Assembly (NCBI GenBank): GCA_947177185.1
Contig: CAMWTJ010000014.1
Span: 1-38,647 of the forward strand
Origin: an uncultured Porphyromonadaceae bacterium
Lineage (GTDB): Bacteria > Bacteroidota > Bacteroidia > Bacteroidales > Muribaculaceae
Length of the DNA stretch: 38,647 nt
Direction of reading: 5' to 3'
Part shown: positions 6,660 through 10,928 of the stretch, piece after piece
Layout of the letters: the number at the start of each line of letters is the position of its first letter
How positions within the stretch are numbered: position 1 is the first letter of the stretch
Notes under the pieces: model-generated
What the model saw: the letters and a program-made list of their open reading frames with translations, nothing else
Database searches by the model: none
Told to the model about the DNA's origin: nothing
Translations under genes and position numbers: made by a program

Positions 6660-8321
6660 ATGAACACCATACAGATTTACTGCGAGAACACCGGCGGCTA
6701 CATAGACGTGGAAGGCGGCGAGAGCCTCGCCTCCATAGCCGCCCGCCTGCAGCTCGGCTTCGAGCCGCTCTGCGCGCGTGTGAACAACAAGACCGAGGGC
6801 ATGCACTACTGCATCTACCGCCCGAAGACAGTGGAATTCACCGGCGCCGACAGCGCCTCCGGCAAGCGCGCCTACGTGCGCTCGCTGTGCATGCTGCTGT
6901 ACTGCGCCGTGCGCCGCGTGTTGCCCGAAGCGCGCCTGCACATTCAGCACAGCATACAGCGCGGCTACTACTGCACGCTCAACGACCACGCCGGCTACCT
7001 GCCCGCCACGCCCCGCGCGCTGGCCGAGATAGCGGCGGAGATGCGCCGCATGACCGCCGCCGACATGCCCTTCGAACACTGCGAGGCACGCACCGCCGAC
7101 GTGGTCGAGATATTCCGCAGCCAGGGCCTCGACGACAAGGTACTGCTGCTGGAAACGATGCACATGCCCTACACCGTGTACTACCGCCTGGGCGACACCT
7201 GCGACAGCTACTACGGCACGCTGGTGCCGCGCACGGGGCTGCTGCGCACGTTCGACCTGCGGCCCTACAAGAAGGGCTTCATTCTGCTGGCTTCGGAGCA
7301 GGCCATCGTGGAGCCCGAGATTCCGCAGGAGAAAATGTACAAGGCGTTCACGGACTATGTGGAGTTCAACCACATCCTGGGCGTGTGCAACGCCGGCGAG
7401 ATGAACCGCATGGTGCAGAACCGCCACGCCGCCGACCTGATAAACCTCGCCGAAGCGCTGCACAACAAGCATCTGGGACAGATAGCCGACGAAATCACAC
7501 GCCGCTACCACGCCGGCGGCGCGCGCGTGGTGCTCATAGCCGGCCCGTCGTCGTCGGGCAAGACCACGACCACCAAGCGATTGGCTATTCAGCTGATGGC
7601 CAATCTGTTGAAGCCTCAAATGATATCGCTCGACGACTACTTCGTGGACCGTCACACCACACCGCTCGACGAACACGGCGACTACGACTACGAATCGCTT
7701 TACGCCCTGGACCTCAAGCAGTTCAACAAAGACCTCAACGCCATACTGCGCGGCGAGGAGGTGGAACTGCCCACCTACAACTTCGAGCTCGGCCGCCGCG
7801 AATACCGCGGCAATCGCCTGCGCCTCGACCGCGGAGGCATACTCCTGATAGAAGGCATACACGGCCTGAATCCCGAACTCACGGCACAGGTGGCCGAAGA
7901 CATGAAATTCCGCGTGTACGTGTCGGCCCTGACCACCCTCACCATCGACAGCCACAACTGGGTGCCCACCACCGACACCCGCCTGCTGCGCCGCATCATC
8001 CGCGACTACAAATACCGCGGCATCTCCGCGCGCGAGAGCATCCGCCGCTGGCCCAGCGTGCGCCGCGGCGAGGAGCGGTGGATATTCCCGTATCAGGAAA
8101 ACGCCGACGCCACGTTCAACTCCAGCCTGCTTTTCGAGCTCGGCGCCATACGCAAATACGCCGAACGCACGCTCGAGGACGTGCACAGCGACGAGCGCGA
8201 GTACAGCGAGGCTTACCGCCTGCGGCGCTTCCTGCAACACTTCGAGCCCATCCCCGACGACCTGATTCCGCCCACATCGCTGCTGCGCGAATTCCTCGGC
8301 GGCTCCTCCTTCCACTACTAA
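6660..8321 (+). CDS. Nucleoside (uridine-type) kinase with threonyl-tRNA-synthetase-like N-terminal domain
   Basis: Predicted P-loop kinase, 553 aa. The C-terminal half (about 285-490) is uridine/phosphoribulokinase-like: Walker A GPSSSGKT at 295-302, SLDDYFVDR at 323-331, the conserved YDYESLYALDLKQF segment, a LPTYNFELGRREY lid region and an IEGIHGLNPEL strand. The N-terminal half (about 1-210) resembles the TGS and second additional domains of threonyl-tRNA synthetase and contains HSIQRGYYCTL. This architecture is known in Bacteroidetes and Firmicutes, where it is annotated as nucleoside kinase; the actual substrate is unknown to me. It follows dtd by 22 bp, and a repeat element begins directly at its stop codon. 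Confidence 0.88.
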   Translation: MNTIQIYCENTGGYIDVEGGESLASIAARLQLGFEPLCARVNNKTEGMHYCIYRPKTVEFTGADSASGKRAYVRSLCMLLYCAVRRVLPEARLHIQHSIQRGYYCTLNDHAGYLPATPRALAEIAAEMRRMTAADMPFEHCEARTADVVEIFRSQGLDDKVLLLETMHMPYTVYYRLGDTCDSYYGTLVPRTGLLRTFDLRPYKKGFILLASEQAIVEPEIPQEKMYKAFTDYVEFNHILGVCNAGEMNRMVQNRHAADLINLAEALHNKHLGQIADEITRRYHAGGARVVLIAGPSSSGKTTTTKRLAIQLMANLLKPQMISLDDYFVDRHTTPLDEHGDYDYESLYALDLKQFNKDLNAILRGEEVELPTYNFELGRREYRGNRLRLDRGGILLIEGIHGLNPELTAQVAEDMKFRVYVSALTTLTIDSHNWVPTTDTRLLRRIIRDYKYRGISARESIRRWPSVRRGEERWIFPYQENADATFNSSLLFELGAIRKYAERTLEDVHSDEREYSEAYRLRRFLQHFEPIPDDLIPPTSLLREFLGGSSFHY

Positions 8322-8449
8322 GACCCCGTTCCCCGATATTTGTTAACGCCGGGGTCGCATATCTCTGAGTGATTTTTGTCTTGTGATGAAGGAGCGTAGC
8401 CATTGCTACGTGACTGAGGAACAAGGCAAAAAACGCCGGAGAGATGCGA
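8322..8449 (+). repeat. Hairpin repeat copy A (left half of a REPIN-like inverted pair)
   Basis: A 35-nt unit (8322-8356) starts GACCCCG and ends CGGGGTC. It is followed by a 95-nt imperfect hairpin at 8355-8449. Outer arms are TCGCAT..CTCT with AGAGATGCGA. Middle arms are TTTTTGTCTTGT (8373-8384) with ACAAGGCAAAAA (8421-8432). The apex is CGTAGC-CATT-GCTACG (8395-8410), preceded by GGAG and followed by TGACTGA. The first 28 nt are a perfect inverted repeat of 8613-8640. No protein gene fits here. Confidence 0.85.
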
Positions 8450-8487
8450 TGATAAGGTAATTTAACACATTAGCACGCATCTGTTAT

Positions 8488-8514
8488 CCGAGGCAAAAGT
8501 TACATTCGCCTCGG
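8488..8514. other. Central hairpin between the inverted repeats
   Basis: CCGAGGC (8488-8494) and GCCTCGG (8508-8514) form a perfect 7-bp stem with a 13-nt loop, between the two inverted repeat copies. No T-tract follows, so it is not an obvious terminator. Confidence 0.5.
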
Positions 8515-8640
8515 CCAATCGCCGTGCATCTGCGTCCGCTTGTTTCGGTCACAATGCAACCGCATTGCTCCCTCACTGCACGAACACATCTGCACAACGC
8601 TTGACCGCCCCAGCGTTAACAAATATCGGGGAACGGGGTC
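8515..8640 (-). repeat. Hairpin repeat copy B (right half of a REPIN-like inverted pair)
   Basis: Read on the minus strand, 8640-8613 is identical over 28 nt to the start of copy A. Further along is GAGGGAG followed by CAATGC-GGTT-GCATTG (8567-8552) and then TGACCGAAACAAG. The flanks match those of the copy A apex, while the stem sequence differs at four compensated positions. The left boundary near 8515 is approximate. Confidence 0.75.
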
Positions 8641-8678
8641 TGAGCCCCCTATACTTATTAAGACCCATACACTGCACC

Positions 8679-8722
8679 AGTCCCTCTCCCCTACCCTGCC
8701 GGCGGGGAGGGGGACTTTTTTT
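8679..8722 (+). terminator. Strong isolated rho-independent terminator
   Basis: AGTCCCTCTCCCC (8679-8691) pairs with GGGGAGGGGGACT (8704-8716), 13 bp with one G-T wobble and a 12-nt loop, followed by seven Ts. It lies about 360 bp beyond the nucleoside kinase stop and before the metG promoter, so it either ends a long 3' UTR or ends a separate non-coding transcript covering the repeats. Confidence 0.8.
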
Positions 8723-8817
8723 GGCCGCACGCCGGCTGCCGCGGCAGCGTCGCGGCGGCAGTATATAATAGGTATATAATATATGTGTGCACAAAAACGT
8801 GCGGCCCGCGGCGGCGA

Positions 8818-8849
8818 TTTTGCAGATTGATGCATTTTTAGTATTTTTG
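8818..8849 (+). promoter_or_regulatory. Bacteroidetes-type promoter of metG
   Basis: TTTTG at 8818-8822 and TATTTTTG at 8842-8849 are 19 bp apart, matching the -33/-7 pattern. The predicted transcript start near 8853 gives a leader of about 24 nt before ATG 8877. Confidence 0.8.
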
Positions 8850-8876
8850 CAAGTTGAATTATCAGACTTTTACAAG

Positions 8877-10928
8877 ATGGAAGAAAACAAATATAAACGT
8901 ACACTCATCACCACCGCCCTGCCCTACGCCAACGGCCCCGTGCACATAGGCCACCTGGCCGGCGTATATGTGCCCGCCGACATCTACGCCCGCTACCTGC
9001 GCCTTCGCGGCCGCGAGGTAGTGATGGTGGGCGGCAGCGACGAACACGGCGTGCCCATCACCATCCGCGCCCGCAAGGAAGGCATCACCCCGCAGGACGT
9101 GGTGGACCGCTACCACAAAATCATCAAGGACTCGTTTGAAGAGTTCGGAGTGTCGTTTGACGTGTATTCGCGCACCACATCGGCCACCCACGCCGAAACG
9201 GCGAGCGAATTCTTCCGCCACATATACGACAAGGGCGGCTTCGTGGAGAAGCCCTCCATGCAGTTTTACGATGAAGGCGCCGGCCGCTTCGTGACCGACC
9301 GCAACGTGACGGGCGAGTGCCCCGTGTGCCACGCCCAGGGCGCCTACGGCGACCAGTGCGAGAAATGCGGCTCGTCGCTCAGCGCCACCGACCTCATCAA
9401 CCCCCGCTGCGCCGAAACCGGCAACGTGCCCGTGATGCGCGAAACCTTCCACTGGTATCTGCCGCTCGACCGCTGGCAGCCCGAGCTCGAGAAATGGATA
9501 CTCGAGGACCACAAGGAATGGCGCACCAACGTGTACGGCCAGTGCAAGTCGTGGCTCGACCTGGGCCTGCAGCCGCGCGCCGTAACACGCGACCTCGACT
9601 GGGGCATCCCCGTGCCCGTGGAAGGCGCCGACGGCAAGGTGCTCTACGTGTGGTTCGACGCCCCCATAGGCTACATATCCAACACCAAAGAGCTGCTGCC
9701 CGACAGCTGGGAAAAATGGTGGAAAGACCCCGAAACACGCATCATCAACTTCATCGGCAAGGACAACATCGTGTTTCACTGTATCATATTCCCGGCCATG
9801 CTCATGGCCTACGGCGACGGCTATCAGCTGCCCGACAACGTGCCTGCCAACGAATTCCTCAACCTCGAAGGCGACAAGATAAGCACCTCGCGCAACTGGG
9901 CCGTGTGGCTGCACGAATACCTGCGCGACTTCCCCGGCAAGCAGGACGTGCTGCGCTACGTGCTCACGGCCAACGCCCCCGAAAGCAAGGACAACGACTT
10001 CACCTGGGCTGACTTCCAGGCCCGCAACAACAACGAGCTCGTGGCCGTGCTGGGCAACTTCGTGAACCGCGCCGTGGTGCTCACGCACAAATACTTCGGC
10101 GGCACGGTGCCCGCTCCCGGCGAGCTTCAGCCGGTGGACACGCAGATGCTGGCCGACGTGCGCGCAGCCGTGGCCGCACTCACCGACGCCCTCGACACCT
10201 TCCGCTTCCGCGAGGCCCTGAAACAGGCCATGGAGATAGCGCGCATCGGCAACCGCTACCTGCAGGAAACCGAACCCTGGAAAGTGGCCAAGACCGACAT
10301 GGACCGCACGGCCACCATACTGTACATGGCCCTGCAGCTGTGTGCCAACCTGGCCGTGGCCTGCGAGCCCTTCATGCCCTTCATGAGCGCCCGCCTCGTG
10401 AAAATGCTCGGCCTCGGCAAGCCCTCGTGGGAAATGCTCGGCAGCGACACACTCGTGGCCGCAGGCAGCGCCGTGGCCCAGCCCGAGCTGCTCTTCGAGA
10501 AAATCGAGGACGAAGCCATAGCCGCACAGCTCAAGCGCCTGGCCGACACCAAGAAAGCCAACGAAGCCGCCGCGTGGAAACCCGCGCCCGTGCAGCCCGA
10601 CGTGGACTTCGACACCTTCTGCCTCTCCGACCTCCGCGCCGGCACCGTGCTGGAGTGCGAGCGCGTGCCCAAGGCCGACAAGCTGCTGCGCTTCCGCATC
10701 GACGACGGCACGCCCGAAGGCCGCACCATAGTGAGCGGCATAGCCAAAAGCTATCCCGACCCCTCCGAACTCGTGGGCCGTCAGGTGGTGTACATAGCCA
10801 ACCTGCCCGCGCGCAAGCTGCGCGGCATCGAAAGCCAGGGCATGATACTCTCGGCCGAAGACAAAGACGGCAGCCTCGTGCTCGCGTCGGTAAGCCGCCC
10901 CGTGGCCCCCGGCGCACAGATAAAATAA
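8877..10928 (+). CDS. metG: Methionyl-tRNA synthetase
   Basis: Charges tRNA-Met in the cytoplasm. The 683-aa class I synthetase has the signature HIGH at residues 23-26 within [15 protein letters not shown], a zinc knuckle with CPVC at 148-151 and CEKC at 161-164, and the KMSKS-equivalent KISTS at 334-338. The C-terminal EMAP-II/Trbp111-like tRNA-binding domain runs from about 575 to the end ([32 protein letters not shown]). ATG 8877 was chosen because the promoter's predicted start lies at about 8853, excluding upstream in-frame starts. It is followed 22 bp later by the asparaginase gene, probably in the same transcript. Confidence 0.98.

Follow-up and report, generated by a model that had tools for sequence, protein, structure and literature searches.

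A 319-bp element in a Muribaculaceae genome is probably a miniature derivative of an IS5-family insertion sequence and carries a conserved hairpin at each end

The window, which is the whole stretch of 38,647 nucleotides analyzed here, contains an element of 319 bp (8322-8640) directly behind the stop codon of a gene for a PRK/uridine-kinase-like protein. A sequence check bore out the preliminary description of its arms, which are 28 nt long (8322-8349 and 8613-8640), perfectly complementary and separated by 263 bp, and of its two GGAG units with a 6-bp stem and a 4-nt loop, which lie in opposite orientations (plus strand, 8391-8417; minus strand, 8571-8545). With the flanking bases included, the inverted repeat extends over 37 nt at 95% (8318-8354 and 8608-8644). 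The features of the locus are as follows.

6660..8321, plus strand: upstream gene, PRK/uridine-kinase-like, 553 aa (ORF list; PF00485, E 1.1e-15; stop codon equivalent in the orthologues)
8319..8321, no strand: left target-site copy TAA, which is the stop codon of the upstream gene (sequence; survey of T(A/T)A at element tips)
8322..8349, plus strand: left terminal inverted repeat, 28 nt (complementarity and arm-pattern search)
8351..8451, plus strand: left-end hairpin, reading inward (covariance model R1, 107 bits, a score that is high by construction because both window ends were included in the R1 alignment)
8391-8417, plus strand: left hairpin tip, GGAG-CGTAGC-CATT-GCTACG-TGACTGA, with GGAG 70 nt from the left end
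8452..8509, plus strand: short leftover interior, at the position of the transposase gene in long relatives (compared with loci L089, L138, L315, and L127)
8510..8611, minus strand: right-end hairpin, reading inward (model R1, 87.3 bits, high by construction for the same reason)
8571-8545, minus strand: right hairpin tip, GGAG-CAATGC-GGTT-GCATTG-TGACCGA, with GGAG 70 nt from the right end
8613..8640, minus strand: right terminal inverted repeat, 28 nt (complementarity and arm-pattern search)
8641..8643, no strand: right target-site copy TGA, one base unlike the left copy (sequence; stop codons of the orthologues)

The element is real and repeated beyond chance. A query of 327 bp gave at least 50 matches in the element's own genome at E<=0.01, and three full-length copies were present among the matches listed, at 100, 94, and 87% identity. 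The arm, searched with up to three mismatches, was found 19 times against 0 for a reversed control, and the pattern GGAG-N16-TGACYGA 17 times against 4 for its control. By reading, 12 of these 17 matches form the 6-bp stem; 11 of the 12 sit in copies with terminal inverted repeats (TIRs), and the twelfth (C72:20-46) lies at a contig end. Several partial copies break off at contig ends, as is expected of repeats in an assembly of 82 contigs. Near the contig start, positions 29-76 of the window hold the remnant right arm of another copy (arm match 46-73, then TAA). Two further loci (L014 and L019; G000:C11 and C43) are remnants of around 35-50 bp with nearly fused tips and with the target copies kept at least in L014, and they are probably collapsed copies.

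Element matches were obtained in 27 of the 49 genomes of the genus, its own included (E<=1e-6), and fell into a left end (around query positions 1-146) and a right end (around 167-327). At 19 pair loci (L087-L105) the two ends face each other no more than 4.8 kb apart, with remnants of one protein family in the interiors. The longest transposase frame among these interiors, 239 aa in L089 (G032:C58) with the start missing, scored 171.2 bits against NF033580 (IS5 transposase, cut-off 110) and 85.6 bits against PF01609 (cut-off 23), and is thus an IS5-type DDE transposase frame. This frame had matches in 20 of the 49 genus genomes (E<=1e-10), which were 36-100% identical and mostly partial. Left and right ends of the element's type surround IS5 transposase sequence in L089, L138, and L314; in these closest long copies the transposase is not evidently intact, and the intact copies are more distant relatives. 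Two of the latter, L315 (G592; 251 aa, counted from M) and L127 (G035; 247 aa, counted from the first M), have a start-to-stop transposase, a structured end on each side, and a flanking TAA left and right, while L143 has an open transposase frame of 263 aa from stop to stop and is likewise flanked by TAA left and right. A near-complete copy at 94% identity in Barnesiella sp. WM24 was seen by reading to have lost the right hairpin and to have an altered C-terminus. According to the record titles, the hosts of the close relatives are Muribaculaceae and other Bacteroidales.

One element copy (L087 2645-7770; G033:C6) is interrupted by around 5 kb with ORFs that by eye resemble a Mu-type prophage, and the idea that this interior is cargo was dropped in favor of a prophage inserted in a copy. 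The window element had no match in the phage collection, and neither it nor L239 had one in the plasmid collection; a phage or plasmid origin was rejected on these searches.

We consider the 319-bp element to be a MITE, an internally deleted derivative of a Bacteroidales IS5-family DDE insertion sequence that has kept its structured ends of around 145 nt, with a probability of around 0.85. It is short, bounded by 28-nt TIRs, free of a transposase gene, and present in multiple copies. The preliminary description was right in that the element looks mobile, is non-autonomous and multicopy, and has paired inverted hairpins; the alternative that it had raised, a MITE with long terminal repeats, is the correct one. 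Some observations count against this explanation. The target copies of the window element are unequal (TAA/TGA), its own genome yielded no intact transposase of the same subfamily but only a 40-residue piece (C24:85-204), next to a left end and close to a contig end, and the closest long copies are not evidently intact either. Sequence comparison shows the origin, the ends, the target preference, a lineage-specific insertion, and a conserved single-strand structure. From established MITE biology we infer mobilization in trans by the parent transposase: the MITE would be moved by an IS5-family DDE transposase acting on its TIRs.

The target preference was surveyed at tips where the model match began at position 1-2, scored at least 30, and had 40 bases of flank (150 tips, one of them unplaced). 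T(A/T)A stands before 130 of 149 tips, equally divided between TTA (65) and TAA (65), and T-N-A before 136 of 149; the copies of the window, TAA and TGA, agree with this pattern with one mismatch. A 3-bp T-N-A target duplication defines the IS1031-like group of the IS5 family, to which this preference corresponds. The preliminary description had held that identical conserved positions in related genomes, with no sign of mobility, would refute its REPIN-like reading. Instead, the site was empty in all 29 orthologous loci fetched (46 other genomes had a match), as checked by eye over around 220-420 bases, with one locus reaching 18 bases past the stop and one containing a run of N. The 29 orthologous genes end at the equivalent codon, which is TGA in 20, TAA in 6, and TAG in 3. 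The data are most simply read as an insertion at TGA, after which the left copy acquired one change; the comparison indicates that the insertion is lineage-specific.

At 29 of the 149 tips the target is the stop codon of a frame that is 80 codons or longer, compared with 3.5% expected, a preference that is overstated because the null comprised all T-N-A sites in the flanks, coding sequence included. Left ends account for 21 of 83 and right ends for 8 of 66, a difference that is not significant (p 0.06). Among the 145 tips with a neighboring frame, 98 are turned toward a gene's 3' end (p 2.8e-5 when compared with one half), at a median distance of 9 nt for left ends and 12 nt for right ends. 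This bias could equally come from purifying selection against promoter insertions.

Each GGAG unit is the tip of a hairpin of around 100 nt and begins 70 nt from its element end. Going inward from either end, the architecture is the same: the TIR, then a long stem with imperfect pairing, then a tip where GGAG stands across from GAC. The left end of the window element folds at -58.9 kcal/mol when read inward versus -43.1 outward, and the right end at -74.2 versus -44.0. The tip motif is present in 116 of 144 distinct ends, in most cases at 70 nt (left ends, 60 of 64; right ends, 44 of 52) and otherwise at 69 or 71 nt. For the analysis of covariation, 15 of 53 cluster representatives of the ends were removed by hand as decayed, hairpin-deleted, or overlapping, L094 was excluded for its extra stem pairs, and the two window ends were added, which resulted in an alignment of 39 ends that mixes left and right ends as paralogues.

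The consensus comprises 31 pairs, of which 26 have at least one compensatory change among the 39 ends. Paired cells amounted to 94.5% versus 69.5% after shuffling, percentages that apply to intact hairpins because the ends were chosen as distinct and intact; the p-values for the cells assume independence, and the cells are not independent. The covariation score was 0.704, compared with 0.246 after shuffling and at most 0.157 with slid partners. On the inward strand, G-U and A-C stood at 106:13 (47:7 in left ends, 59:6 in right ends). Since prediction on the inward strand itself favors G-U, the structure was also derived from Watson-Crick pairs only, and the ratio was then 70:26. The inward fold was lower in energy than the outward fold in 39 of 39 ends. 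At the tip, two consecutive GA/GA steps are each present in 35 of 39 ends, with the GA of the GGAG tag across from a GA of the opposite strand in 35 of 39. Two GGCG ends have TAAC on the partner strand, not TGAC. Likewise, in L121, L123, L234, L236, and L251 the third tip base is C (GGC) and the partner is AAC, not GAC, which is a possible case of non-canonical covariation from A-G to C-A.

A single-stranded form would account both for the compensatory changes and for the excess of G-U over A-C on the inward strand of both ends. The alignment thus indicates that the end structure is maintained as single-stranded nucleic acid, with RNA and DNA fitting alike. A plain long TIR was rejected because beyond around 37 nt the ends have a common structure, not a common sequence. 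A known structured RNA was rejected on negative Rfam searches: window positions 7800-9200 gave one match under its cut-off (16.2 bits against 40, E 0.77), and ten related loci gave 0 matches at gathering scores.

Model R1 matched 182 of 297 sampled genomes of the family, in 22 of 30 genera, 17 of 392 genomes of the order, and 1 of 392 genomes of the phylum, the last being that of the window itself; these large searches were run with stricter filters, by which weak matches are lost. Thirteen of the order genomes with matches lie outside the family, and in 11 of the 13 the matches look like single hairpins, many of which can be seen to lie between TIRs of another kind, in the manner of a smaller MITE. 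Such MITE-like palindromes with one hairpin and other TIRs were seen in other Bacteroidales families or genera (L234, L236, L237, L239, L245, L251, L254, and L356), and they share a similar tip, GG(A/C)-stem-(G/A)AC. In some, L243, L255, and L237 for instance, the outermost bases vary between copies, yet they form inverted repeats within each copy. The remaining two of the 13 have nearly alike long hairpins at contig starts, in genomes of two other families (L242 45-133, L246 59-147), with a shortened GGGAGCGAAGCGACTGG tip lacking GACYGA. Within the genus, one-hairpin forms with the window's own TIR were found at L059, L071, and L209.

A tree of 21 transposases, which was midpoint-rooted for drawing only, unites all 10 that have structured ends in a single group (96/92). 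Neighbors from genome G520 at 37-42% identity, L324 (900 bp) and L341 (870 bp), are without matching ends save for a weak match in L324, which scored 16.1 bits (E 0.039) with filters off. The further weak matches outside the group under the same setting were 12.3 bits for L157 and 11.4 bits each for L152 and L318; a 24.4-bit match at the end of the L318 locus reads as a neighboring MITE. L158 begins at a contig end, which places its left end outside the scan. We interpret the structured ends as a derived feature that the members of one IS5 clade share. The single-contig genome G520 itself holds four near-identical IS5 copies of around 900 bp and at least six of around 870 bp without matching structured ends.

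The preliminary description had read the element as a REPIN mobilized by a RAYT (Y1) transposase. A tetranucleotide tag does precede the hairpin (GGAG), and the two units are inverted. However, the hairpins lie within IS5 ends, with an IS5 transposase between ends of the same type, TIRs, and a T(A/T)A target, and in the window's own genome they are neither free-standing nor RAYT-flanking, all but one of the stem-forming units being parts of TIR elements. We know of no Y1 transposase that duplicates a target of this type. A search for Y1_Tnp (PF01797) found no match in this genome (90.94% complete). In the genus, 33 of 49 genomes have a Y1_Tnp match. They include 19 of the 27 that carry the element and 14 of the 22 that lack it, so the two are not clearly associated; 8 of the 27 element-bearing genomes were without a match. 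Of the 62 Y1_Tnp matches, some of them weak, 23 loci (3 plus 20 fetched) were scanned, and the strict GGAG-hairpin-YGACYGA unit occurred at 0 of 23, compared with 18 of 20 element loci. A related hairpin lies near two of the 23. The one in L356, around 0.3 kb off (47.8 bits), is apparently a separate one-hairpin MITE. The other is a GC-rich look-alike in L352 (917-961; 20.1 bits), around 0.14 kb from the Y1_Tnp match; its tip is similar (GAGGGAGCGC..GCGCGACCGAG), and it may be a genuine REP-like repeat that belongs to a Y1 element. REPs and REPINs with RAYTs (PMC3733652) resemble the window element as intergenic, possibly RNA-acting hairpins with a tetranucleotide tag, but the tags there are GTAG or CGTC, with 0 occurrences of GGAG in the text of that paper, and the GTAG repeats are linked to the Y1 HUH transposase without IS5 ends. 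On the searches of the own genome and the genus and the scan of Y1 loci, RAYT mobilization was rejected as extremely improbable.

The closest known systems, from sources available in part, are MITEs. In Porphyromonas gingivalis, which has the IS5-family elements ISPg1/3/4/9, the Bacteroidetes MITEs MITE239, MITE464/PgRS, MITE700, and BrickBuilt likewise have TIRs that match resident IS5-family elements (PMC4596501). BrickBuilt retains no transposase remnant according to that text, and it differs in that its long stem-loops come from internal tandem repeats; a conserved hairpin beside each TIR is not described for the P. gingivalis MITEs in the available part (PMC4596501). Correia/NEMIS, ERIC, and CIR are also small mobile repeats with folding transcripts, and the RNA of CIR has two stem-loop arms and a linker, as in the window element (PMC2229807). 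MITE RNA structures are reported to regulate adjacent transcripts, with an effect of ERIC on mRNA stability (PMC2229807). These repeats have other TIRs, hosts, and sizes (around 100-200 bp), and IS5-linked mirror-image end hairpins are not described for them in the sections obtained (PMC2229807). MITEAba12 is a bacterial MITE that has moved, for which a resident DDE-transposase insertion sequence, ISAba12, is the proposed mobilizer; in the accessible text it differs in its 113 bp, 16-bp TIRs, and 9-bp target duplications and in being identical to ISAba12 only in the TIRs (PMC6382973). Some insertion sequences of Amoebophilus, including the IS5-family ISCaa9, have hairpins in the first 50 bp, given without detail in the extract (PMC3196728), and a Prevotella repeat, as far as the excerpt goes, has no TIRs (PMC4755523). 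The IS110 bridge-RNA elements are like the window element in having a structured RNA of an insertion sequence, judging from part of the source (PMC11208160). The window element differs from IS110 in its IS5 DDE transposase and short T-N-A target. IS110 uses a different recombinase, and its bridge RNA guides the choice of target. Covarying mirror-image end hairpins in IS5 elements were not found described among open-access titles and the opening parts of abstracts, a set that leaves most subscription papers and ISfinder outside.

As to what the hairpins do, we give even odds to their acting at the RNA level when host transcripts enter the element. A transcript entering from either side would present the inward strand, which would fold at once into the long hairpin, and the folded hairpin would buffer both element and host gene through 3'-end formation or stability, without productive read-through. 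Insertions directly behind stop codons would then be tolerated, and the RNA-level role fits the frequent position of the element there. The main rival, which we hold to be distinctly less probable, makes the hairpins cis-acting parts of transposition, in which the inward, non-transferred DNA strand would be extruded as a hairpin that the transposase or a host protein binds. The mirror-oriented hairpins at an equal and fixed distance of 70 nt fit that role too, as does their retention in MITEs, which keep what mobility needs and have no transposase gene to regulate. Strand-specific folding suits single-stranded DNA as well, and paired GA steps (two positions, 35 of 39 ends each) are also stable in DNA. 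Single-stranded hairpins are bound in IS200/IS605 or integron attC sites; to our knowledge, however, IS5-family DDE transposases do not need single-stranded ends. Right ends also appear to be hairpin-less in L138, L140, L159, and L185 (the sequence was read in L138 and L185), and forms that have a single hairpin and are closed by a bare TIR, which occur both in the genus (L059, L071, L209) and in other families, indicate that two hairpins are not always needed.

It is unlikely that the left hairpin serves only as an attenuator in the 5' leader, against transposase expression from outside transcripts, with the right hairpin as its duplicated, functionless mirror. In long copies the left hairpin does separate the tip from the start of the transposase, and the stem-loops of IS200 terminate impinging transcripts and occlude the ribosome site, as stated in the part of the source available (PMC3196728). 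However, the right hairpin pairs equally well and has the same bias, though it would be free to decay, and transposase-free MITEs retain both hairpins. Somewhat speculatively, and with less confidence than for the RNA-level role, we suggest that this Bacteroidales IS5 clade may have folded-strand ends whose paired-GA tip would be recognized by the transposase or by a protein of the host, which would couple transposition or host tolerance to entering transcription, and that MITEs may have spread these ends across the order.

A DDE insertion sequence is normally taken to end in double-stranded protein-binding sites, and a conserved folded-strand hairpin at each end is unexpected for this kind of transposon. 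IS5-linked MITEs in Bacteroidetes (PMC4596501) and RNA-level roles of MITEs elsewhere (PMC2229807) are already described. In the present elements, a single-stranded structure appears to have been retained at both ends despite changes in sequence. This feature characterizes a single transposase clade and is present in 182 of the 297 sampled genomes of a gut-bacterial family, and many copies sit in what would be the 3' untranslated region of a host gene. It offers a case in which one can test whether RNA or single-stranded DNA structure works in a DDE transposon.
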